From a virus: a stretch of DNA of 27,540 nt. Below are positions 14,729 to 27,540 of this stretch, one piece after another; the stretch's first letter is position 1, and each line of letters begins with the position of its first letter. A model generated the notes under the pieces. It had not been told where the DNA came from and did not search any database. It saw only the letters and a list, made by a program, of their open reading frames with translations. The stretch spans positions 1 to 27,540 of the IMG/VR virus record IMGVR_UViG_3300031578_009723; one strand, written 5' to 3'. Both the position numbers and the translations under genes were made by a program.

Positions 14729-15445
14729 TTATCTTTTATTTACCAACGATTCTAAGTATGTGGCATTCTTCTGTAATTTGTGTTGATATTCCGCCATATA
14801 TTCTAACACAAAATCGCCTTCCCAATTATAACGATAGACCACATCTTTTACAAATCGTACTAAATTCAGGTCACCAACAGGGGTATTAAATGGCAGATGC
14901 TGCCCATGTCCTTTGGCTCGATTGGATAAATGGATGACTGATGTGTATTTCAAAAGAAAGGGTAATATTTTATTATCAAACCACAATTCTTCGATATGAC
15001 TTGTGTCAATTACCATTTTCGCATTTCTGTTGTCACTCCAGATTAAATACTCCACTATTTCTAATGGACTACGAAATTCTTTTTTACCTTTCCATCCGAA
15101 TGTTTCAATACACAATATGACTTGACTATGCACTCCATGAGTAAACTCAGGGATGAATGACGAAATTCCTTTATTCGGATGTATAACAAACTTGACACAA
15201 CCCGTTCTCTCAAATATCTCATTTACCATTGTGGTTATATCTTTCCGTGGTCGCTTTAGTGTATCTAATGGTAAGTGAGTAACTCTTACTTTTGTATTAT
15301 TTTCTTCTAAAGAATGTAAGATGTCATCTGAATTGATTTGATAATTTTCGTATTTATATAATGCAAGCTGAATACTTGACGGAATATTCTCTTTATAGTA
15401 TCTATCATCTTTACCAAATCCATATGAAATCGACACATTAATCAT
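14729..15445 (-). CDS. Xylose-isomerase-like TIM-barrel protein
   Basis: A 238-residue protein with the C-terminal pattern of the xylose-isomerase-like / AP-endonuclease-2 TIM-barrel superfamily. A metal-type Glu in CIETFGW (132-138) is followed by VIDTSHIEELWF with a DxxH strand-end pair, then SVIHLSNRAKGHGQHLPFNT with a further His, and a last strand FVLEYM (Glu near the C-terminus). These are the positions where superfamily members bind divalent metals to isomerise sugars or cut DNA at abasic sites. The likely function, sugar epimerase or endonuclease, is open. Its start overlaps the FolE2 stop as ATGA, so the two are translationally coupled. A joint pathway is inferred only from that coupling. 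Confidence 0.6.
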   Translation of the reverse strand: MINVSISYGFGKDDRYYKENIPSSIQLALYKYENYQINSDDILHSLEENNTKVRVTHLPLDTLKRPRKDITTMVNEIFERTGCVKFVIHPNKGISSFIPEFTHGVHSQVILCIETFGWKGKKEFRSPLEIVEYLIWSDNRNAKMVIDTSHIEELWFDNKILPFLLKYTSVIHLSNRAKGHGQHLPFNTPVGDLNLVRFVKDVVYRYNWEGDFVLEYMAEYQHKLQKNATYLESLVNKR

Positions 15446-16765: not shown

Positions 16766-16965
16766 TTCTCAACTATTCCTTTTGGGTCAAAGTAAAATAT
16801 TTGCGGTTTTTCTTCTGCATCTTCACGATTAAGTTGACTCTCAAAGTCGCCTATTATATATCTCATATAATAATCAGGTGTTGAGTCACGCATTAAACTT
16901 TTCAGGTAATCAGTTGTTGAGTCACACTTATCATAAAACTGGTACTTATTATAATAAGTACTCAT
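16756..16965 (-). CDS. Hypothetical protein, 69 aa
   Basis: A small Tyr/Asp-rich protein (MSTYYNKYQFYDKCDSTTDY...) with no recognised motif. It follows the beta-subunit gene directly, sharing one base with its stop (TAATG), and no strong SD is visible, so translation may depend on re-initiation after the long beta message. It could be a small polymerase-associated protein, but nothing in the sequence shows this. It is acidic and Tyr-rich, with no cysteine cluster. Confidence 0.5.
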   Translation of the reverse strand: MSTYYNKYQFYDKCDSTTDYLKSLMRDSTPDYYMRYIIGDFESQLNREDAEEKPQIFYFDPKGIVEKWP

Positions 16966-19961
16966 TACTGATCAATACCAATCACTGTCAAATAAGAATT
17001 TAACAACTTGACAGATTCAGGAGTTGAATCGAGATCTTTGGGTTGCTCTGATTTTTCATCAATGAATCCTCTAATATAAGCATTTTTTCGCTCAATACAA
17101 TCAGACTTGGTTGTTAAGAACTCAAACAAGTTTATTGGTGCATCATGACCAATGAGACATGCAGTTTCCATTTCACCGCATCTCTGGCCACCTTTGTTTT
17201 TACGACCACCCAATGGCTGAAGTGTTCGTTTTGCATATGCACCAATACCACGAGCAGCCAATTTTTCTTCGGCTATATGAACCATTCGCAAGAAGTAAAT
17301 ATACCCAACCGCAATAGGATTTTTCAAGTGTGTTTTGGCTAACGGATCATATATTCTTTGCTTGAAACTCGTGTGTGTGTAAGCTAATGCTTTCTTGATA
17401 TCTTCAAGTTTACATGACTCGAATGGTGGCTGAATCAATGTAAGCTCATTTATAAATTCTTCTGTTATAACTTTTGGCAACTGTGTGGCAAATTGTGTGA
17501 GATACCACTTTTCAGCTGTTTTATCAATAATGTCAATATATGCTAACAAATACTTTTTGATTTCATTTTGATCGACTTCATCTTTAAGCAATTGAATCAT
17601 GTTAGCTTTTAAATCATAGAGCGACATTGATAATTGTAGCTCAAATAATTGACCAATGTTCATTCGTGAAATGATACCCAATGGGTTAATACAAATATCT
17701 AAATGCTGCCCATTTTCTGCCTGTGGCATTTTTTCATGAGGAACAATTCTGGAAATGACTCCTTTGTTTCCATGCCGGTTTGCAATTTTGTCTCCGACTT
17801 TTACTTTTCTAAAATGCACCCCATACATCTCAACGAGTATTCCATTGATTTTTTCTTTCTTTATTTTATATTTACCAACAAATGAAAATAGATCTAAACC
17901 GTTTTCCCTGATAAATTTATTGACTTGATCTTTTTCTAACTTATCGTGCAATACTTTTTTAAGAATAAGCTCTTTTTCTTTCTGCCTCTCAATCGTTTCT
18001 GCTACCCAATCTCGAAACTCAGGAATGTCCTCATTCCAAGCATTTGCATAAATATTTATTTCTGGAATAATATATGTTTTTTCAGCCTCCAGTGGAAGAC
18101 GCTCGGGGAATACCGAATACATATCATCCATGGTTAAACTTTTCAGAATTGCATAAGGACTTCCGGAATTTACAATTTCAAATTCTTTCGGAAGCGGTTT
18201 ATACAATCCTTCTTGTAATGATAACAAGACTTTATATGGCGGAATTTCAAAAGACAAATCTTTGAAATGTACTGAGGTTAAAATATCTTCATTGACAAGT
18301 CGATCTGATATAACAATTCCGTCTTCATAGTTGTTTCCATAATATACCATAACACCCGTTAAAAGATTTCGTCCAAAACGAATGCTTCCATCTTTACAGA
18401 AATTACTCTCCGCTAAAATGTCTCCCGCTTTGAATTTATCTCTTGGTTTAACATAGACATTCATAAAGTCCATGTGCTCAACATATATCTTTCTATAAGC
18501 AATATTGAATATATCAACATCGCCATCTGTATAAGTAACGATTAAATATTTTGAGTCAATATGGACAACCTCACCATCCTTTTTTGCTCGTTTAACAAAT
18601 TGGGTGTAATCTGTATATAGATGCTCACACCCTGATCTGATCATTGGATGGTCAAACTCTCTTAATAGAATTGATTGCCTCATTTGCGAAGATGACATTT
18701 GTAGACGTGTCTGGTCATCATGCTCCAAAAACGGAACCATCGAAACAGGTATTGATATTGGCTGTTTCTCTAAGCACTCAGGTTCAAATCTTAAGTTTTC
18801 ATCAAGTATAACATTTGGGATTAAATTTTGTAATACACCACAATTATCACGGTCGGGTGTATCAACTGGACAAATTCGACCGTACATTGATGGAGTAATA
18901 TCCCTTAAATGCCTTGGAATATTTTCTCTCTTGAATCCGCCCGGTCCTAGCAAACTGATTCTTGAAAGCTTTGTCAGCTCTTCAATCGGATTAATTGAAA
19001 AATCGAATTGAACAATATCGGAAACGTTGCACTCTGATAATATTTGAGTGGAACTGATATTAAACTTTGGATGTCTTGCAGTTCGATTTGAAAAACATAA
19101 ATCAAACACAATCTTTGATAGTTTTGCAAAGATCATGTATTCAAAACATCTCACTCGTTTATTTGTGAACTCAGTATCATCAACATCGCCAGCCTGCATT
19201 GCCCACAATAATTCTTCTATTAACGAATCTGTATGTAGAAACTGTGCTGTTATGGGGTCGACCTTTGGAATTAAATCCAATGCATAAATAATGTCTTCCC
19301 CTTTTGATTTCGCATTATATCTTGAATAAAGTCGTCCAACTTCTAAGATAAAGTCATCTTGTGTATATCCTGCCGACTCTTGATGAAATAGTTTCAAATC
19401 ATCAATTAATAACTCCATCAAATTGGTTTTGTCTCGAATCTGAAATGTATCAAGCGAGAACCGTTGATTTAATACGGACGAACCATAATATGCCAGCATT
19501 ATTAATGAAAGAGGAACTTTTTTACCTAAGAAACTAACATTGATGCTTGGTTCTTCTTTTTCTTTGACAATCATTAATGTTGCTACATTAGTTCTTAGTT
19601 TGATGGATTCTCCCCTTGTTACAACCGGAATATCAAAAAGTTGAAACAAAGGAACCTTTTTCCTTCCATTAATCATTATATAATTATCATCAATAATTTT
19701 CGGAATAAAGATACTCAAATCAATATTATGAGTCCCTTTTTGTAAACGAATAACTAGAGTTTGTTTAAGAGTTTTTGATAGCTCACCCGATGAGAATCTT
19801 GAATGTCTTAAATCCAACTCTGTAATTGTGAAACCGATTTCAGTAACCGGTTGAAGTATCTGTTCTGTCAAAGGTAAAATATTTTCGTAATCTAATCTCC
19901 TTATGGTGAAGATGTTTTTATCTTCATTTTGGATTTTGAAAACCGGATTAATTATATTCAT
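16965..19961 (-). CDS. rpoB: RNA polymerase beta subunit (phage, single chain)
   Basis: A 998-residue beta homologue in one piece. Signatures in order are: GPGGFKRENIPRHLRDITPS and YGRICPVDTPD (339-370, fork-loop region); YGNNYEDGIVISDRLV (541-556); KVGDKIANRHGNKGVISRI (721-739) with the active-site basic residues; INPLGIISRMNIGQ (758-771); and RTLQPLGGRKNKGGQRCGEME (912-932). Together with beta' it forms the catalytic core of a multisubunit RNA polymerase. Most phage multisubunit polymerases known are split into several chains, so a full-length chain is unusual. It starts inside the beta' stop (ATGA), with GGGAG ten bases upstream. It is shorter than typical bacterial beta (about 1150-1350). 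No alpha, omega or sigma gene is seen here. Confidence 0.93.
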   Translation of the reverse strand: MNIINPVFKIQNEDKNIFTIRRLDYENILPLTEQILQPVTEIGFTITELDLRHSRFSSGELSKTLKQTLVIRLQKGTHNIDLSIFIPKIIDDNYIMINGRKKVPLFQLFDIPVVTRGESIKLRTNVATLMIVKEKEEPSINVSFLGKKVPLSLIMLAYYGSSVLNQRFSLDTFQIRDKTNLMELLIDDLKLFHQESAGYTQDDFILEVGRLYSRYNAKSKGEDIIYALDLIPKVDPITAQFLHTDSLIEELLWAMQAGDVDDTEFTNKRVRCFEYMIFAKLSKIVFDLCFSNRTARHPKFNISSTQILSECNVSDIVQFDFSINPIEELTKLSRISLLGPGGFKRENIPRHLRDITPSMYGRICPVDTPDRDNCGVLQNLIPNVILDENLRFEPECLEKQPISIPVSMVPFLEHDDQTRLQMSSSQMRQSILLREFDHPMIRSGCEHLYTDYTQFVKRAKKDGEVVHIDSKYLIVTYTDGDVDIFNIAYRKIYVEHMDFMNVYVKPRDKFKAGDILAESNFCKDGSIRFGRNLLTGVMVYYGNNYEDGIVISDRLVNEDILTSVHFKDLSFEIPPYKVLLSLQEGLYKPLPKEFEIVNSGSPYAILKSLTMDDMYSVFPERLPLEAEKTYIIPEINIYANAWNEDIPEFRDWVAETIERQKEKELILKKVLHDKLEKDQVNKFIRENGLDLFSFVGKYKIKKEKINGILVEMYGVHFRKVKVGDKIANRHGNKGVISRIVPHEKMPQAENGQHLDICINPLGIISRMNIGQLFELQLSMSLYDLKANMIQLLKDEVDQNEIKKYLLAYIDIIDKTAEKWYLTQFATQLPKVITEEFINELTLIQPPFESCKLEDIKKALAYTHTSFKQRIYDPLAKTHLKNPIAVGYIYFLRMVHIAEEKLAARGIGAYAKRTLQPLGGRKNKGGQRCGEMETACLIGHDAPINLFEFLTTKSDCIERKNAYIRGFIDEKSEQPKDLDSTPESVKLLNSYLTVIGIDQ

Positions 19962-22624
19962 TCAATCATTTCTCCCTTTAGGATTTTATCCATTATACCC
20001 GAATATCGACCTTCATACATAATACCCTTTAATATACTTCTCTTTGGATTTGAGAATGCCATTGCAAGAATCCAACTTTCTTGATTTGGTACTGATTGGA
20101 CACTGAAGTATGATGGTTTGACCGCATCTCGATTTTCAAGCAATCTCCATTTCCGTGAATTTTTCCACATTAACTGAGCTACAACACATTCAAAATGGAC
20201 ATGATGTATATCCTTATTGTATACTGCAAACAAATCATGAACAATATTTGTATATGTTTTTCCTTTGAATCTATGTAGTAACTCTGCTACAGCTGTCAGA
20301 TCTCCAATGATATCCCTTTGCTTCATTCCAGGATTTTCGTCTTCACCTTTAATCATGGCAGACCCTGATGTGTGGAATGTTCTTAGCACTAATTGCGTGC
20401 CTCGTTCACCAAGGGTTTGTGCTGCAATTATTCCAACAAAACGGCTGTTGATATGTTTATAAAGATCTCCGTAACATGTTTTGCATAATTTGGCCGATTT
20501 ACAAAGAATTGGACTTCTGATTTTTATTACTGTACCAACCAATCCTTCACAATTGTCGTTAGTTATTTTTACTAACTCTCCGCCTTGGGACATATTTCGC
20601 CCAACAAGCATTCTTGCTTTCTTGGAAGATGTAACATTGACTTCAAGAAAATCGGTTGTGCCACAATCCTCCAGATCTTCATTGATTTGTAAATTGGCAC
20701 ATGTAAATATAAGTTTTCTTGATAGATAACCAGATGTGCCCGTATTCAATGCAACATCAAGCAATCCTTTTCTACATCCATTGGTTGATAAGAAAAACTC
20801 CTCTGGAGTTAGTCCTTGAACAAGACTATTTTTGATAGGAGTTGGTAAGATTTCACCATCAAAGTTTGAGATAAACCCACGAGTCAGAACCATTTGTTTT
20901 GCCTGATCCCAACTACCCCTTGCTCCAGATTCAATCATGTATGCATAAGGGAATGCTTTCTGTAACCGTCCAATTACCTCTGGACTATTTGCTGCAACCA
21001 ACTGATCTCTAATTTCCGGAAGATCATAAATTGATTTACGAATACTGTCAGCTTCAGGAAAATCAAAATCATCTAGCGACATTGTACAGCCGAGAAGAGT
21101 TGCATATTTAAAACCAACGCGCTTTACCGCATCTAATGTTTGTGCTGTTATATGCTCCGGATAAATATCTTTAATTTCATTCAATATTGAAAGGAGTTTC
21201 TTTTCGTCCACGATTCCCCTAACTTCAGGGTAATCATCCGGCAAACAATCGTTGAACAATTTGAATCCTTCTTCTTGATCTTCAAAGTCTGGTGACGTAA
21301 TAAAATAAATTCCGAGAATAATATCCTGACTCGGAGTTGTCGTCAATGCTTGATTTGATGGACTGCTTAGATTTTTTGTAATAAAGAGTTTTTCACGAAT
21401 CTCTTGTTTTGCTTCTGTTGTCACCGGAATATAAACCGCCATTTGATCCCCATCAAAATCTGCATTGAATGGGGGACAGACAAGAGGGTGAATCTTTATA
21501 ACTTTATCAAGTGTCATCTTGATATTAAAAGCCAGCATACTCAACCTGTGTAACGATGGTTGCCTGTTCAATATACAGACTTCATTTTTTGTGATTTCCT
21601 CACATATTTTATATAATGAGGGATTATCTGTTTCAATACATTTATCAACAAAATCAATTGCTTTATTCAACAACTTGAACTTGCCAATTTCGATAATTCT
21701 TTTTGCAATTGGCAATTTAAAAATTTCTAAAATCATAAGATAGGGAAGAACACATTGATCAAGACTCAATGTTGGATCTGGCGTGATAACCGCACGACCT
21801 GAGAAGTCAATACGTTTACCCAAAATGTTACCCCGGATCAACCCTTCTTTCTTTGCCATCTTTTCTAATATGCGATGGTATAGTTCATTTACATCTTTCT
21901 GTAATAACTTGAAATATGTGTAATACAGATTTTTATCACGAAGGATTTCAATTGTTGTATCCCTCATGCTCTCTTTCTTTGTTAATATCTGGACATAATA
22001 ACGATTTATTTTATCCATCAATTGTTTACCGCCGGCAGCCGCAGATGACGGTCTTAAATCCGGAGGTAATACAATTACCTGATTTATCAAAATGTTTTCG
22101 ATATTATTATAAATTAAAGTCCATTCTGGAATACCCTCTTTTGCAAATTCATAGGATAAATCTTTAACCAGCTTATATATTGCATCAGTCCGTTCCCAAA
22201 ATTCAATCTTCTCTTGACGTTTATCTTGATCGGAACCAATAATATGCTCAAGCCCTTCCATGTATAAATAACTCTTTTCATTTCTCATTAACTCATCAAT
22301 TGCATGTTTTAAAGTCTTCCCCCCAACCTCTACAACTAGGTCATAGAAGATGGGGTTGACTACAGGAATTGGTAGAATGATTTTTGCAAATCGTGTTCTC
22401 CTTACATCACTGTTAATAATGTCAACTTCGCATGTTGAGCACTTTCCTCCCGATTTCGATAAGCCATAGTAGGTTCCGCACTGACATGTGTAATTTTTTA
22501 TTGGTCCGAAGATTTGTTCCGAGAACAAACCTAACGGATGAAACTTTCTCTTTCCGAATACTTTTAGAGAGGTTACTTCCTCTAGATTTTCACAGAATTG
22601 TGCGTAGTCTAAAACTTTTGGCAT
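19958..22624 (-). CDS. rpoC: RNA polymerase beta' subunit (phage, single chain)
   Basis: The start is taken at the ATG at 22624 (MPKVLDYAQF, 888 residues), nine bases after GGAG; a GTG six bases upstream sits too close to the SD. The N-terminal zinc site is Cys47, Cys49, Cys62 and Cys65. VLPPDLRP (186-193) precedes GNILGKRIDFSGRAVIT. The catalytic NADFDGDQ is at 387-394, with the three Mg2+ Asp residues present. The bridge/trigger region (FFLSTNGCRKGLLDVALNT then SGYLSRKL) lies at about 610-640, and a second zinc cluster (Cys654, 708, 714, 717) precedes AAQTLGERGTQLVLRTFH. It then ends after about 135 residues, so it lacks the large insertions of bacterial homologues. It reads before beta, the reverse of bacterial rpoB-rpoC. 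Confidence 0.93.
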   Translation of the reverse strand: MPKVLDYAQFCENLEEVTSLKVFGKRKFHPLGLFSEQIFGPIKNYTCQCGTYYGLSKSGGKCSTCEVDIINSDVRRTRFAKIILPIPVVNPIFYDLVVEVGGKTLKHAIDELMRNEKSYLYMEGLEHIIGSDQDKRQEKIEFWERTDAIYKLVKDLSYEFAKEGIPEWTLIYNNIENILINQVIVLPPDLRPSSAAAGGKQLMDKINRYYVQILTKKESMRDTTIEILRDKNLYYTYFKLLQKDVNELYHRILEKMAKKEGLIRGNILGKRIDFSGRAVITPDPTLSLDQCVLPYLMILEIFKLPIAKRIIEIGKFKLLNKAIDFVDKCIETDNPSLYKICEEITKNEVCILNRQPSLHRLSMLAFNIKMTLDKVIKIHPLVCPPFNADFDGDQMAVYIPVTTEAKQEIREKLFITKNLSSPSNQALTTTPSQDIILGIYFITSPDFEDQEEGFKLFNDCLPDDYPEVRGIVDEKKLLSILNEIKDIYPEHITAQTLDAVKRVGFKYATLLGCTMSLDDFDFPEADSIRKSIYDLPEIRDQLVAANSPEVIGRLQKAFPYAYMIESGARGSWDQAKQMVLTRGFISNFDGEILPTPIKNSLVQGLTPEEFFLSTNGCRKGLLDVALNTGTSGYLSRKLIFTCANLQINEDLEDCGTTDFLEVNVTSSKKARMLVGRNMSQGGELVKITNDNCEGLVGTVIKIRSPILCKSAKLCKTCYGDLYKHINSRFVGIIAAQTLGERGTQLVLRTFHTSGSAMIKGEDENPGMKQRDIIGDLTAVAELLHRFKGKTYTNIVHDLFAVYNKDIHHVHFECVVAQLMWKNSRKWRLLENRDAVKPSYFSVQSVPNQESWILAMAFSNPKRSILKGIMYEGRYSGIMDKILKGEMIE

Positions 22625-22637
22625 TATCACAATCTCC

Positions 22638-22856
22638 TTAAATTGAAAATTTCTCTTTTACGAGATCTGCTAACTCGATAAAATGCTGTTTGACTCGTTT
22701 GGATATTAGTTCGTCTAAATGTGGTAAAATTGCCAAAACGATTCTAGTTGCATCCTCTTCTTTTAATGTTACTTCTAACAAGTCAGCCTGCTTACCGATC
22801 TCATCCCTAATCAGCTTTCTTATATAGTCTTCCATAATATGTAATTTTTCAGCCAT
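22638..22856 (-). CDS. Small helical protein before beta', 72 aa
   Basis: An acidic and basic amphipathic helical protein (MAEKLHIMEDYIRKLIRDEI...) with no cysteine or Gly-rich motif. AAGGAG precedes the ATG, and the gene lies between the E2-like gene and the beta' gene, ending just upstream of the latter's SD. Its size and position allow an omega- or delta-like polymerase accessory role, but the sequence does not show one. It equally may belong to the conjugation cassette. Confidence 0.55.
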   Translation of the reverse strand: MAEKLHIMEDYIRKLIRDEIGKQADLLEVTLKEEDATRIVLAILPHLDELISKRVKQHFIELADLVKEKFSI

Positions 22857-22859
22857 AGA

Positions 22860-23333
22860 TTATTCTCCTTGGTTCAATTGCATAGATATTGATCTTAGTT
22901 TTCTATACTCGACTTGATTTTTTGGTGGAGTATAAAAACAATCATCAAGATAATATGTCTTAATATTTGTTAGAAGCATCTCAAAATATTTTTGATCAAA
23001 CTTAACACCCTTTTTATAATCAGGCAAACAATATAAACATGTATCTGGATCTCTATTTGGATGATACCCGAATAATGTAATGTTGCTTACAAAGTTTTGC
23101 TCTGTCATTACCATGAATCCATTGATAAAAAACTGTGGATGTAAATATGTGATTTCATATACATTTTTATTTTTAATCATACGGGTTGGGGTGATTTGCC
23201 CCTCATAGATATATACTTTCTCTACGAGAGGCAAATCATTATCGTAACCCCATATAACTAATCGGTCGTCAACATAATCCATTGGTTTATGCCGCTCCCG
23301 TTTCTTCCAATAGTTCGACGAATGATTTCCCAT
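22860..23333 (-). CDS. E2-like ubiquitin-conjugating protein (tentative)
   Basis: A 157-residue protein whose second half resembles the core of ubiquitin E2 enzymes: a hydrophobic strand region, then GYHPNRDPDTCLYC (89-102), comparable to 'HPNI...G.ICL' with the catalytic Cys. The Cys would be Cys99 or Cys102. It is followed by a loop and a helix (FDQKYFEMLLTNIKTYYL), then DDCFYTPP near the end, where E2s have a helix and Pro-rich tail. The N-terminus is basic. Family-level knowledge: E2s take the modifier from E1 to a Cys, then pass it to a lysine. Prokaryotic E2-like proteins are divergent, so this is moderate at best. The start has GAGGAG five bases upstream and overlaps the preceding E1-like gene by 47 bases. 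Context, not sequence alone, drives the call. Confidence 0.45.
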   Translation of the reverse strand: MGNHSSNYWKKRERHKPMDYVDDRLVIWGYDNDLPLVEKVYIYEGQITPTRMIKNKNVYEITYLHPQFFINGFMVMTEQNFVSNITLFGYHPNRDPDTCLYCLPDYKKGVKFDQKYFEMLLTNIKTYYLDDCFYTPPKNQVEYRKLRSISMQLNQGE

Positions 23334-24204
23334 TTTCGCTCCTCACTGTAACTATGTAGTTTGAGACACCAGGTTGTAATTCAACTAGTTCCGAAAGTCT
23401 TTTCATCACATCCATTGAAGTGTTTAGACTTTTTACTGGAATCATTTCGTATTGAGTTTCTGCTACTTCTGGCATTTTATTAAATAACTTTTGCAGAATG
23501 CTTTGGGATGGTTTTTCTCCAACATAAACATCTATATGCTGGGTCTTGTTTAGTTCTAATATTGGTTTAATATTGTCCTCTATGCATTGGAGACGTTGTG
23601 ATAAATCACTCTCTTCATAAATAATATCTATTTTGTTTTCTAATGTTCTTTTGATTGCCTTACTCATCATAGATGGTACAATTTCAAGATCAATTCGTTG
23701 CACCTGATTATTTTTCATCATATCAAGTATTTCTTCACTATCAATCATCTGTGCTGCATAAAATGCTGCTTTGTTGATTTCAGGTTTTGATAATTGAATT
23801 GAATATGAGCCATCGTATGAGCAAGCGTTTTTGACTTGCTTTCTGCAATCTACCATCAGAACTTTCCTCGAGATATAAAATCTAATATCAATTTCATTAT
23901 CTCGATTGCACACAACATCTCTGCAATCAATTACAAGATTACATTGTGGTAAAAACGTCTTACCTTCAACATAGTGCTTGTTAATCTTAGTGACAGTAAC
24001 ATCATCATTTATTATATCTGCTAATGCATTGACCTTGCATTCTCCAACTTGTGAAGAATTATAGATAGATGAGAATACGTTTTTACTCTCAACTATATCT
24101 GGGTCAATTATTAATAACTCTTTTACACCGTCTAGTTCGGATATGTGTTTAGCTAGAAATCCACCTAACGTTCCCACTCCGATTACTGCCACTTTACGAA
24201 ACAC
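23287..24204 (-). CDS. Second E1-like (ThiF-family) protein, possibly pseudo-active
   Basis: A 305-residue ThiF/E1-type protein. The start is a GTG, nine bases after AAGGAG. The ATP-binding Rossmann start is VAVIGVGTLGG (5-15), followed by LLIIDPDIVESKN (30-42) with Asp34 and Asp36. The adenylation Lys is in GECKVNAL (Lys57), and the aspartate of 'vD' follows at VIDCRD (91-96). After VESKN it has VFSS where E1 enzymes have the Arg-Gln pair, so a key ATP-site arginine seems absent. Cys120 and Cys128 are candidate thiol sites. The C-terminal ~120 residues are extra and not recognised. It may be a partner subunit, like the non-adenylating member of the eukaryotic NAE1 or SAE1 pairs, but this is an inference. 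It follows the modifier gene. Confidence 0.7.
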   Translation of the reverse strand: MFRKVAVIGVGTLGGFLAKHISELDGVKELLIIDPDIVESKNVFSSIYNSSQVGECKVNALADIINDDVTVTKINKHYVEGKTFLPQCNLVIDCRDVVCNRDNEIDIRFYISRKVLMVDCRKQVKNACSYDGSYSIQLSKPEINKAAFYAAQMIDSEEILDMMKNNQVQRIDLEIVPSMMSKAIKRTLENKIDIIYEESDLSQRLQCIEDNIKPILELNKTQHIDVYVGEKPSQSILQKLFNKMPEVAETQYEMIPVKSLNTSMDVMKRLSELVELQPGVSNYIVTVRSENGKSFVELLEETGAA

Positions 24205-24231
24205 TAAGGTAATCTCCTTCCAAGTGGATTA

Positions 24232-24251
24232 GGGGGATCCGGAGATCCCCC
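24232..24251 (-). other. Very stable RNA hairpin with UCCG tetraloop after the modifier gene
   Basis: On the minus strand GGGGGATC-TCCG-GATCCCCC forms an 8-bp perfect stem closed by C(UCCG)G, a member of the stable UNCG tetraloop class. It starts 20 bases after the ubiquitin-like gene's stop and lies 12 bases before the next gene's SD. No U-run follows, so it is not a standard terminator. It could protect the upstream message end or lower read-through into the E1-like gene. Confidence 0.65.
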
Positions 24252-24270
24252 CTTTACCATCAAAGATGGA

Positions 24271-24744
24271 TTATCCCTTTTTTCCTGCTGGTTTTAGATA
24301 CTCAAGAGTATCACCCGGTTGCAGGAGATATTCGGCACCAACTTCCTTGCCGTTTACCAGACCAGTGGAAAGACGATCCACATTCAGGACTTCACGAAGG
24401 AATTCCCCGACTTCCTTGACACTCCGGCCGGCAACAGGGAAGTTACCAGAAGAGGCACCACAGGATACCTGAATTGTGGTTGTGGTCTTTTGCCCGAAGG
24501 CTGCACCTGGTTTTGTGAGGGTACTTTGAGCTTGGAATGCCACACCGCTCATTGCTGCAGGTTTTGCTGCGGCTGCTTTGGCTACTGTTGCTCCAGAAGC
24601 ACCGAATTTGGCAAGAATGGCTGCGACCACAGTATCCTTGGGTTTCTTGGTCATACCAGGGATAGCGAGTTCATCAACACACATTCTTTTAAGTTCGACT
24701 GCAGTTTTGGCTTCCAATTGATCTTTTGTAAAATTTGCTCCCAT
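24271..24744 (-). CDS. Ubiquitin-like modifier with SAP/Rho-N-like N-terminal head
   Basis: The start is the ATG at 24744, eight bases after AAGGAG (157 residues). Residues 5-47 (FTKDQL...ELKRMCVDELAIPG...TVVAAILAKFG) look like a SAP/Rho-N-type helical unit, often a DNA- or RNA-contacting module. An Ala/Lys/Gly linker (48-85) follows. Residues 86-157 form a beta-grasp: TTTTIQVSCG strand, SVKEVGEFLREVLNV helix, a GLVNGKEVG strand, LQPGDTLEYLKPAGKKG. The end matches the ThiS/MoaD/Prok-Ub style 'GDTLExxxPxGxKG' with a terminal glycine, so it needs no trimming before adenylation. The gene is visibly more GC-rich than its neighbours, consistent with high expression. Hairpins flank it and a candidate promoter motif precedes it. 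The modifier role is inferred from the fold-level pattern and context. Confidence 0.72.
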   Translation of the reverse strand: MGANFTKDQLEAKTAVELKRMCVDELAIPGMTKKPKDTVVAAILAKFGASGATVAKAAAAKPAAMSGVAFQAQSTLTKPGAAFGQKTTTTIQVSCGASSGNFPVAGRSVKEVGEFLREVLNVDRLSTGLVNGKEVGAEYLLQPGDTLEYLKPAGKKG

Positions 24745-24776
24745 TTTCAAATCTCCTTGTTACATTTAGTTTGTTG

Positions 24777-24787
24777 TTACTTTGTTC
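24777..24787 (-). promoter_or_regulatory. Candidate promoter motif GAACAAAGTAA upstream of modifier gene
   Basis: On the minus strand GAACAAAGTAA differs by one base from the two exact GAACAAAATAA copies (9071, 10357). It lies between the hairpin at 24793-24809 and the modifier's SD, 32 bases from the ATG. This fits separate transcription of an abundant small gene. It is a weaker match and could be chance in an AT-rich region. Confidence 0.3.
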
Positions 24788-24792
24788 ACGAT

Positions 24793-24809
24793 GTGGTCAA
24801 AATGACCAC
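24793..24809 (-). other. Short hairpin after the first E1-like gene
   Basis: A perfect 7-bp stem, GTGGTCA/TGACCAC, with a three-base loop overlaps the TAG stop of the E1-like gene. No T-run follows in transcription direction, so it is unlikely to be a full terminator. Together with the hairpin at 24232-24251 it frames the modifier gene. Confidence 0.45.
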
Positions 24810-25501
24810 TACTGCTTTACGATTCGAATCTTCGAGTTGGAGTTCATACTTAAAATATCAAAGTAGACCTCCGACCGATCATGCTGATCTTTTACAAATG
24901 AGTTGTAGAATAACCAGCACATCAGCGTTGCAACGCCCAGATTTGTGAAATATAACTGGGGTTCCGATTGAGATAATTCCTCACATGACATCTCATCTGG
25001 TAACTTATCGTCGGGATTTGCAATTTCAGGATGATATGCACATAGATCAGGTGTTAAATCACAACCCCCTTTCCTGACATAAAGTTGTGCATTTCCATCC
25101 GTTAATTCATTCCCACCAGAAACAATGGTAACATCGTTCAGATTCTTACAGTAATTATTAATTATCATTCTGGATTTGTGATTGTCAACACATATAAATA
25201 CTATTGTATTTTCTTTGATAACTTGGGCTACATTTGCCTCGTTGATATAAGAATCAAATACATCAAATGCAATATTGCTGAATTTCATAGCAAGCTCATT
25301 GGCTTTTGTTTCAGCTTTATTACCCATTCCGCTAAATTCTTGACGTGCAAAATTCTTCATTTCATATTGATCGCCGTCAACTAAAAGTATGTTACTTTCA
25401 TAGTCTTGAGAAAAGTTTAGGAATCGACACAATCTTTCAGCCAAAATTGTGCCGACACCACCTAAACCAATAATTGTAATGTTAATGCATTGAGCCATCA
25501 T
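24809..25501 (-). CDS. E1-like ThiF-family adenylating enzyme (PRTRC-ThiF-like)
   Basis: A 230-residue E1-type enzyme, which in this family adenylates the modifier C-terminus with ATP. Motifs are complete: IIGLGGVG (10-17); LVDGDQYEMKNFARQ (40-54) with Asp42, Asp44, Asn50 and the Arg53-Gln54 pair; KAETKANEL with Lys66; CVDNHKSR (104-111) with the metal-type Asp106. Later SCEELSQSEPQLYFTN (172-187) recalls the 'SCxxxEAL..Q.LFxN' block of PRTRC-system ThiF proteins, with Cys173 a candidate thiol. There is no separate UFD-like domain. It overlaps the JAB gene by 20 bases, and GGAGG six bases before ATG-ATG supports its start. Among the two E1-like proteins this is the one expected to be catalytic. 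Confidence 0.82.
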   Translation of the reverse strand: MMAQCINITIIGLGGVGTILAERLCRFLNFSQDYESNILLVDGDQYEMKNFARQEFSGMGNKAETKANELAMKFSNIAFDVFDSYINEANVAQVIKENTIVFICVDNHKSRMIINNYCKNLNDVTIVSGGNELTDGNAQLYVRKGGCDLTPDLCAYHPEIANPDDKLPDEMSCEELSQSEPQLYFTNLGVATLMCWLFYNSFVKDQHDRSEVYFDILSMNSNSKIRIVKQ

Positions 25502-27350
25502 TACCGCCTCCGAAAACCTTTCTCATTTTATCTATAATAGTTTGACTAAAAGGTTTTGGCTGATAGGGGCCTTTTTCAGGATCGGGGATGCGTTCCAATG
25601 TTCTGTCCGCTTCAGCTGCTGCATCTAATATAGCTTGATGCTCCTCGTCTGATTGATCGAGAAATGCTCCACTGTCTGCTTGACTCTGATTTAATGAGTC
25701 AGTCATTTGAACTGAAAATATCATTTGACAACGTGGGCATTTCCCTTTTTCTGCAACTGCCTCGCTTAAGACCTCTATATGACAACGTGGGCATTCTATT
25801 TTTTCTTCTCGCTCATCATCGAAGAAAAGGTCCACTAAACCATAACACCACGGACATTCATTAGCGTTAAGCATGTCATCCTCAGTAAAATAATGTTTAC
25901 AATGAGGACATTGCCACTCTATATCATCATCATCATCATCAGATACCTTAACTGTATCTGGCAATAGAGTTTGACAATAAGGACAACATTCATCCGAAGA
26001 CAATTTCAAGAATGTGTTTCCACATTCAAGACATTGCATATACCCTTGTTGATCCGGCATTTCCATAGATTGTGCCGAATTTAATGCAGCTTCCCTATCA
26101 TCTATAACTTGGGGATCCCCCACTGAATGATTATTTTTTAGATCCTTTTCATCTATATAGTTCAAATACATATCTGTCTTACATGTTGGGCATTTTGGTT
26201 CTGCATCAGTTGTGGTAAAGAGAACTTTACATTTTTCACAGTGATACATTTCCTCTTGATAATCAACGTCCTCCATCTCATCCATAATTTTGAAAACACG
26301 ATTTTTACATGATAGACAGGGATTGCTTGGTTCGCAGTCTTTTGCCTTTTCTGGGGTGACAACAGCTGGCGGAGTTACTGGAGCTGTTCCAACGAATGGA
26401 ATCTGTTTCTGTGCACCAGGTGCAACAAATCTTCCAGCTTGCTTCCATAAATCTCCATCATAATGACCACCCCAATTATTCCAACGACTACCATTCCAAC
26501 GACTACCATGACCTTGCCAACGATTACCACCATACAATCCACCATAGTATCCACTATAGTTATATGTATATGTACCTCTTTCTACAAGGTTCATCCATTT
26601 TGGATTGAATTGGCGTTTGCTTGCTGATACTTTAAATAGGTATCTCTTGTCGAGTTTCCTTTTTGAATATGCACTTTTGCTGCTGGCAGCTTCATCTAAA
26701 ACCATTTTACTGGTTTTCGGATCAACTTTATAGACTCTTGTTGAATAATAGACTTCTTCTTCATCAATATCTTTTGTCTTTGAAAGACCCAGCATATAAT
26801 CTTCTGGGTTAACAATGAATCGACTTCCGTTGGCGACTATTGATGCAGATAGACTGAACTCTTCGCTCATAACATTACCATAAGTAATATGGAGCCCATC
26901 GAATGTTTTTTCATCTGCATCATCTACACCCGAGTGGAATGCTGAAAAGTTTGCATGACTGTGAATTGTTCCGATCATGGTAAATCCTTCAACCGTAACA
27001 CCTCGATTGTAGTCACATGCAGCTGCGGTCACTTTCTGGGTTGGGGGAACGACTTTATACTTACCCGTTTTCTCGTTATAGAATAATAGCACAATAGCTT
27101 CACCGCCAAACTTCTCAAAGACTGCTTTAAAAAACTCAAGGACTTTAGCTCCATATTGTGCTGGCAATGGATTAATATACATTCGTGCCATTGTATTGAC
27201 ACTTTGCAATATTGATATGTTTTTGACTGGGGCGATACTTTCCATCACCCCAATCTTTTTCTTCAAGAAAATTCCCTCTTTGGCGACAATATAATATATA
27301 TCATCATCGGGAAGTTCTTGAGTTCCATCATTTACAACAACATTGAACAT
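25482..27350 (-). CDS. JAB/JAMM peptidase with Tyr/Gly/Trp-rich linker and zinc-ribbon array
   Basis: A 622-residue protein. Residues about 70-190 form a JAB/MPN+ domain with a complete JAMM set: Glu84 (GGEAIVLL), His130, His132, Ser140 and Asp143 (HSHANFSAFHSGVDD). This is a zinc isopeptidase fold that removes or matures ubiquitin-like modifiers. Residues 258-305 are Tyr/Gly/Trp/Asn/Arg-rich and probably disordered. Four CxxC...CxxC zinc ribbons follow (Cys371/374/387/390; 440/443/456/459; 481/484/499/502; 520/523/538/541), plus a lone CxxC at 345/348. A six-Asp run lies at 471-476. The ribbons may bind substrate, DNA or RNA; an E3-like role is possible but not shown. AAAGGAG precedes the ATG. 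The start overlaps the stop of the preceding cut-off gene (TAATG). Confidence 0.85.
   Translation of the reverse strand: MFNVVVNDGTQELPDDDIYYIVAKEGIFLKKKIGVMESIAPVKNISILQSVNTMARMYINPLPAQYGAKVLEFFKAVFEKFGGEAIVLLFYNEKTGKYKVVPPTQKVTAAACDYNRGVTVEGFTMIGTIHSHANFSAFHSGVDDADEKTFDGLHITYGNVMSEEFSLSASIVANGSRFIVNPEDYMLGLSKTKDIDEEEVYYSTRVYKVDPKTSKMVLDEAASSKSAYSKRKLDKRYLFKVSASKRQFNPKWMNLVERGTYTYNYSGYYGGLYGGNRWQGHGSRWNGSRWNNWGGHYDGDLWKQAGRFVAPGAQKQIPFVGTAPVTPPAVVTPEKAKDCEPSNPCLSCKNRVFKIMDEMEDVDYQEEMYHCEKCKVLFTTTDAEPKCPTCKTDMYLNYIDEKDLKNNHSVGDPQVIDDREAALNSAQSMEMPDQQGYMQCLECGNTFLKLSSDECCPYCQTLLPDTVKVSDDDDDDIEWQCPHCKHYFTEDDMLNANECPWCYGLVDLFFDDEREEKIECPRCHIEVLSEAVAEKGKCPRCQMIFSVQMTDSLNQSQADSGAFLDQSDEEHQAILDAAAEADRTLERIPDPEKGPYQPKPFSQTIIDKMRKVFGGGNDGSMH
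25923..25940 (-). repeat. Six-copy ATC (GAT) trinucleotide run
   Basis: Six tandem ATC units on the plus strand encode six Asp in the JAB protein (residues 471-476), between the second and third zinc ribbons. It may be a slippage-prone site and a flexible acidic spacer. Confidence 0.7.
26478..26507 (-). repeat. Tandem 15-bp repeat in JAB linker
   Basis: Two head-to-tail 15-base copies (attccaacgactacc) encode the duplicated Asn-Gly-Ser-Arg-Trp unit (seen as GSRWNGSRWN) in the Tyr/Gly/Trp-rich linker. A further diverged copy (NRWQGHGSRW) lies beside it in the protein. Such repeats suggest growth of the linker by slippage or unequal exchange. Confidence 0.75.
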
Positions 27351-27540
27351 TAAGCTCTCCTTTGGTTTAAGTATCTGGTTGATAATTGATTCTCATATAC
27401 ATCATATGAATGTAGATCTAACAATCCTCTGAGAACACCAACTTCTTCAATTTTTGCCGTTATCACCCGTGGTGCAGGAATACAATCCAGTCTGCACTCC
27501 CTTGTCATATATCTATCTAAAGAATATGACTCAGGATAAC
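27350..27540 (-). CDS. Partial gene upstream of JAB (start outside window)
   Basis: The minus-strand frame is open from the window edge to a TAA that shares its last A with the JAB start codon. The visible 62 residues (ending in STRYLNQRRA) include CRLDCIPAPRVITAKIEEVG, and no family is recognised. Tight overlap shows it belongs to the same operon as the conjugation genes. It may be another member of the cassette. Confidence 0.55.
   Translation of the reverse strand, partial: YPESYSLDRYMTRECRLDCIPAPRVITAKIEEVGVLRGLLDLHSYDVYENQLSTRYLNQRRA

Follow-up and report, generated by a model that had tools for sequence, protein, structure and literature searches.

The present analysis concerns a 27,540-nt (27.5 kb) viral DNA fragment, positions 1-27,540 of IMG/VR record IMGVR_UViG_3300031578_009723 (the window), in which a block of genes quite probably constitutes, as read from sequence, a PRTRC-type ubiquitin-like conjugation module of phages, with a fixed place beside the RNA polymerase (RNAP) genes of its viral lineage. 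The observed basis of this reading is homology, gene order, conserved catalytic residues, a signature at the tail of the predicted modifier, and tandem modifier precursors. An earlier reading of the letters, the original prediction, had described five adjacent minus-strand genes at 22860-27350 as a cassette of a JAMM peptidase, an E1-like enzyme, a modifier, a second E1-like protein and a candidate E2. All five genes are present at these positions; however, the set does not end with them, but runs on into a Prok-E2_D gene at 27350-27538. The cassette and the genes that adjoin it are as follows.

27350..27538, minus strand: PRTRC_B-like (Prok-E2_D) gene, last 62 codons only, the rest being cut off by the window end; recognised by C-terminal alignment with L007:5732-8305.
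25482..27350, minus strand: PRTRC_A-like JAMM metallopeptidase of 622 amino acids (aa), with a C-terminal Cys-rich zinc-ribbon region; TIGR03735, Prok-JAB, hhalign and motif.
24809..25501, minus strand: E1a, PRTRC ThiF-like activating enzyme; ThiF, PRTRC_ThiF, hhalign and C173.
24271..24750 (likely start 24744), minus strand: predicted modifier, with a Rho_N/SAP-like N-terminal part and a ThiS/TGS-like domain; family scores, KG tail and AlphaFold2 (AF2) model.
23287..24204, minus strand: E1b, second E1-like protein; ThiF, hhalign to E1a and residue counts.
22860..23333, minus strand: 157-aa protein with an E2-like active-site motif (HPN 91-93, Cys102); residue conservation.
22638..22856, minus strand: conserved 72-aa protein without an assigned function, encoded between rpoC and the 157-aa gene; 49 distinct relatives.
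19958..22630, minus strand: phage RNAP beta'-like subunit; RNA_pol_Rpb1 domains.
16965..19961, minus strand: phage RNAP beta-like subunit; RNA_pol_Rpb2_6, 4.1e-52.

E1a matches the Pfam ThiF family above its cut-off (67.6 bits, 1.2e-18) and, among several ThiF-type NCBIfam models, PRTRC_ThiF (TIGR03736) below the curated cut-off (5e-11; 1e-12 for the homologue in L010), and profile-profile comparison with hhalign aligns it over its whole length with the plasmid PRTRC ThiF (223 columns, 99.9%, E 7.8e-31). The full ATP site claimed for this enzyme is borne out by N50, R53, Q54, K62 and D106, which are kept together with C173 in 79-82 of 82 relatives; Cys173, aligned with the PRTRC SC motif, is invariant (82/82). 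The JAMM protein scores weakly against Pfam Prok-JAB (20.1 bits, 6e-4; cut-off 25) and lies under the curated cut-off of NCBIfam PRTRC_A (TIGR03735, 1.5e-9; 2.6e-10 for the L010 homologue), and hhalign aligns it with plasmid PRTRC_A at E 7e-20. Its motif is complete, as had been proposed, with E84, H130, H132, S140 and D143 conserved at 99% across 83 relatives. Many CxxC zinc-ribbon motifs are fused C-terminal to the JAMM domain (window:25671-26339, approximate) in the window protein and its close relatives, and are absent from the distant relative L010; a RING-like match of this region (BRCA1, E 0.007) was dismissed as a probable similarity of cysteine pattern. E1b is likewise a ThiF-family protein (44.2 bits, 1.7e-11, above the cut-off), and to this extent the proposal of a second E1-like protein stands; hhalign relates it to E1a at E 3.4e-16, with homology confined to the N-terminal Rossmann half. 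However, the Arg of the NxxRQ ATP-site motif is absent in 58 of 58 relatives, K57 and D93 being kept, and E1b is probably a non-catalytic E1-like protein and a candidate partner of E1a, a putative pairing of active and inactive chains that resembles eukaryotic heterodimeric E1s. The E1b C-terminus (window:23287-23330) bears a conserved ...ETGAA tail.

The role of cassette E2 had been given to the 157-aa protein, and here the original prediction is not supported as it stood: at family level the E2 role falls to the gene upstream of JAMM, because it belongs with Prok-E2_D and aligns with PRTRC_B at an invariant cysteine. Its intact homologues are ~820-970 aa long and contain Prok-E2_D (PF14460), which was detected once per genome in 23 of 29 records, scoring up to 29.5 bits against a cut-off of 25, and in none of 14 control genomes. 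The candidate E2 cysteine, Cys190 in L007 numbering, is invariant (54/54), and the hhalign alignment of these homologues with plasmid PRTRC_B (E 6e-5) lies around it. At L108:4420-8867 and L105:6958-8984, JAMM has two or three ~350-aa E2-D-like genes upstream of it, and RNAP is not present within the flanks fetched for these two contigs. The 157-aa protein carries an E2-like active-site motif, which makes it a candidate second E2 with a chance somewhat better than even. P49, H91 and C102 never vary across 53 diverse relatives, and P92 and N93 exceed 95%, which places H91, P92, N93 and C102 among the few most conserved residues. The HPN-x8-C spacing, found in 43 of 55 members, equals that of two ubiquitin-conjugating enzymes, which were the only matches of the family profile in the PDB at E<=10, both at HPN...C (E 0.16 and 1.1). 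The competing view, that this small protein is unrelated to E2 enzymes and uses its HPN...C motif for metal binding or in some other role, falls a little short of even chances and draws on a series of negative results. The AF2 model (predicted local distance difference test, pLDDT, 82) found no fold match with Foldseek in the PDB or BFVD, and UQ_con did not match the protein at genome level (27 records), results on which a ubiquitin-conjugating fold was set aside; hhalign provided no similarity to PRTRC_B, so that it was also rejected as the PRTRC_B-type E2. Initial domain searches assigned the protein to no family, and UQ_con run on individual members matched 2 of 48 (best 0.0059).

The window modifier ends in ...PAGKKG, i.e., with the exposed terminal glycine that had been noted. 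Of 64 matches to the modifier profile, 60 carry KG in terminal or near-terminal position (40 at the exact end, and 20 followed by 1-5 extra residues, which are a single Cys in 15 and other residues in 5), and the four without it comprise one protein cut by a contig end and three weak matches with Rho_N alone; KG closes just 96 of the 6234 open reading frames (ORFs) of >=60 aa from the same loci. Among 58 modifier members, 46 score with Rho_N, 36 with TGS and 25 with ThiS, and the weak fold neighbours of the AF2 model are mostly beta-grasp proteins (TGS, TtuB, MoaD, ubiquitin, NEDD8), with RCK domains as well. Like GxKG tails occur in plasmid PRTRC_C proteins (RAAGAKG, RRAVGTKG), some of which have C-terminal extensions, and a small upstream ORF ending in xKG, mostly GxKG, accompanies the JAMM-E1 or B-A-ThiF set of many other phages. 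In Bacillus phage KLEB27-3 the modifier consists of four 57-residue copies head to tail, each matched separately by TIGR03738 (PRTRC_C) at ~4e-4, below the NCBIfam cut-off; the same model gave no match to cassette modifiers of the window lineage. Other head-to-tail modifiers are found in Vibrio phage D69 (three copies) and contigs L121 (four), L127 (five) and L128 (two), and lineage member L044 has two complete Rho_N-modifier units in tandem. GxKG closes each copy of these tandem modifiers (2-5 copies) and thus stands at every junction, an arrangement that resembles polyubiquitin and in which the junctions would be the expected cut sites of the JAMM peptidase.

Tandem modifier ORFs: L011:2709-3458, L121:4534-5286, L127:5595-6701, L012:4292-5083, L128:6269-6658 and L044:9989-10948.

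Salmonella phage Arash has a modifier-like ORF ending in RRTGTKG (L013:107-307) that is absent from its annotation, and the deposited gene gp251c (102-320) overlaps it in another frame; the entry Gp251 of the Arash particle proteome was rejected as the modifier, as the annotated gp251c is in a different frame from the modifier ORF.

A search for like gene order in other phages, which had been suggested as a check, was positive. Scans of viral contigs with E1a as query recovered 82 distinct E1a sequences, whereas the JAMM protein as a single-protein query recovered no relatives. The order JAMM, E1a, modifier, E1b, 157-aa protein, (72-aa protein), RNAP beta' and beta is kept in 55 distinct viral contigs, the window included, usually with folE2, which confirms the proposed collinearity with the RNAP genes; the E1a sequences of these contigs range over ~49-93% identity, and cassette family members share a single strand in every contig mapped. 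In 52 of the 55 the E2-D gene could be identified ahead of JAMM, and two of the other three contigs start at or inside the cassette. All 12 genomes counted had exactly two ThiF-family proteins, which fits the E1a/E1b pair of the cassette. This phage lineage keeps the conjugation-type block as a stable core feature, linked to its RNAP genes.

The host lineage of the cassette is very probably that of large tailed phages of the mReC type, Caudovirales with full-size RNAP beta and beta' and a Gp23-type capsid (PMC7481178). The window encodes a terminase large subunit (phrog_2; PF03237 weak, 0.0033), a tape-measure protein and baseplate-like proteins, and the virus is therefore a tailed phage. It shares full-size RNAP beta and beta' and the terminase, with its weak PF03237 match, with the mReC phages, and the Gp23-type capsid (PF07068) is present in the longest related contigs, i.e., it comes from relatives and not from the window fragment. 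Two related loci also derive from metagenome 3300017989, a source of PMC7481178 too, whereas neither ubiquitin nor ThiF is mentioned in the text of that paper. Downstream of the RNAP genes lie a FolE2 GTP cyclohydrolase (window:15442-16302) and a TIM-barrel protein (14729-15445); folE2 has this position in 44 of 82 contigs, which may be a pointer to 7-deazaguanine DNA or tRNA chemistry. Host inference from genome contigs failed: two archaeal metagenome-assembled genome contigs had the RNAP-linked block. These are L140 and L141, from bins labelled Thermoplasmatales and Woesearchaeota, one with a complete cassette and L141 without a recognised 157-aa gene, and they are most likely mis-binned virus sequence.

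The PRTRC system, as yet little studied, belongs to large bacterial plasmids and comprises PRTRC_A, B, C, F and ThiF (TIGR03735-TIGR03738, PF14460). The resemblance to it suggested at the outset is upheld by profile-profile alignment for three proteins (ThiF, A and B), the last of these in intact relatives of the window, although all PRTRC matches fall below the NCBIfam equivalog cut-offs. The phage and plasmid systems share a homologous E1, JAMM and E2-D protein, the order B-A-ThiF, the GxKG modifier tail and C-terminal extensions on some modifiers, and in Arash-like and KLEB27-3-like phages the arrangement of modifier, at least one other gene, B, A and ThiF matches the plasmid C-F-B-A-ThiF. 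However, in the cassette the modifier lies downstream of E1 and has a Rho_N domain, E2-D takes the form of a long fusion, zinc ribbons are attached to JAMM, and E1b, the 157-aa HPN protein and the RNAP linkage are additional. PRTRC ParB, E and F had no match in the cassette or window proteins scanned, NCBIfam having been run on only part of the window proteins. Bacterial defence operons with E1, E2 and JAB components (CBASS Cap2/Cap3, 6A-MBL, Bil/Bub) are also comparable, and E1b has weak similarity to the 6A-MBL cap2_3 model, but in the phages E1 and E2 are encoded as individual proteins, and the surroundings of the cassette contain no recognised effector, whether cGAS-like, MBL or other. Lambda-type tail assembly (TAPI/TAPK; PMC1779556) offers another phage-encoded ubiquitin-like protein with a JAMM peptidase, but there no E1 or E2 is described, the context is tail genes and JAB is fused to NlpC/P60.

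These comparisons allow a model to be proposed, in which we infer adenylation, thioester transfer, conjugation, JAMM processing and the target alike. The JAMM enzyme would trim the modifier after ...GxKG, either removing short tails or cutting polyproteins apart, upon which E1a would adenylate the terminal glycine and probably form a thioester on Cys173, possibly with E1b as a non-catalytic partner. The modifier could then move to the cysteine of E2-D (Cys190 in L007), to Cys102 in the 157-aa HPN protein or to both, be joined to target proteins, and later be stripped off by the JAMM enzyme. Because of the Rho_N domain and the fixed RNAP linkage, the targets may lie in or near the transcription machinery. 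The fullest version of this scheme, a complete ubiquitin-like system dedicated to the phage and acting on its own transcription machinery, with a nucleic-acid-binding Rho_N modifier (a polyubiquitin-like precursor in some), a two-subunit E1 in which E1a is active and E1b a pseudo-E1, two E2-type proteins and JAMM recycling, is a rather doubtful proposition.

Several observations weigh against a conjugation module. The modifier fold is suggested by family scores that are weak and by a model of medium confidence (pLDDT 70) without a significant fold match, and the modifier profile does not align significantly with that of PRTRC_C (E 0.06), so that the link between the two is carried by the tail and by KLEB27-3-type intermediates. 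In MoeB-type enzymes an N-terminal helix holds an Arg finger; E1a is without such a helix, and its catalytic details may differ. No E3 or target was found, and since, to our knowledge, PRTRC has no known function, homology gives the phage cassette no role. An improbable alternative, the least favoured of those considered, is a sulfur-carrier module in which a ThiS/MoaD/CysO-like modifier would receive a Gly thiocarboxylate via E1a and, with JAMM acting like Mec+, feed nucleotide or cofactor chemistry. The ThiS and TGS scores, the ThiF type of E1a and the recurrence of folE2 would all suit it, as would the occurrence of JAMM, ThiF and ThiS sets in sulfur pathways (PMC1779556). However, the set has as a fixed member a Prok-E2_D protein with an invariant cysteine, the window shows no recognisable rhodanese, sulfurtransferase or cysteine-synthase partner, and polyprotein modifiers and the PRTRC relationship suit a modifier better.

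Two further alternatives concern purpose and could be compatible with a conjugation mechanism. The original prediction had raised action against host defences, and bacterial ubiquitin-like conjugation does serve in anti-phage defence (PMC10097602), which would make it a natural opponent for a phage counterpart that tags defence proteins or strips CBASS- or Bil-type conjugates. However, anti-defence genes are usually accessory and patchy, whereas this block is a stable, RNAP-syntenic core feature over the whole identity range of the lineage, and the best family matches are to PRTRC or general ThiF, the Cap2/3-type model being far weaker for E1a; the suggestion thus finds no support, and a counter-defence device is unlikely. 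A virion-assembly module, in which the proteins are packaged or structural proteins are modified, is slightly less so, yet still not favoured. In Arash, gp246c (E1-like) and gp248c (E2-D-like) are deposited as 'structural protein', and the particle proteome includes Gp246, Gp247, Gp248, Gp249 and Gp251 (PMC10585845). However, that study detected 116 particle-associated proteins, its authors allow for carry-over of abundant enzymes, the numbering of paper and GenBank record may be offset, and Arash stands outside the window's lineage; because of the number detected and the possible offset, this proteome is expression evidence at most.

PRTRC and the E2-D family are already known in plasmids, and the annotation of some phages includes isolated PRTRC-like components, e.g., a PRTRC_A domain and ThiF in KLEB27-3, whose E1 and JAMM genes are gp194 and gp195. 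Within the open-access literature, where a search for PRTRC and ubiquitin returned no relevant paper, what appears to be new is a cassette tied to RNAP throughout a lineage and equipped with E1b, the HPN protein and a Rho_N modifier, together with polyubiquitin-like phage modifiers. No phage genome is known to us to have a full set of ubiquitin-like conjugation genes in its core. What was found in print for phages is a ubiquitin-like protein with JAB in tail clusters (PMC1779556). The compact form of the module in cultured phages (Bacillus KLEB27-3, Vibrio D69/D148/D181 and Salmonella Arash) makes PRTRC function directly testable, and phage cassettes are a source of minimal E1/E2/JAMM sets. 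The tandem modifiers represent a polyubiquitin-like gene organisation in bacterial viruses, and the lineage-wide cassette beside the RNAP genes suggests that these viruses tag proteins during infection.

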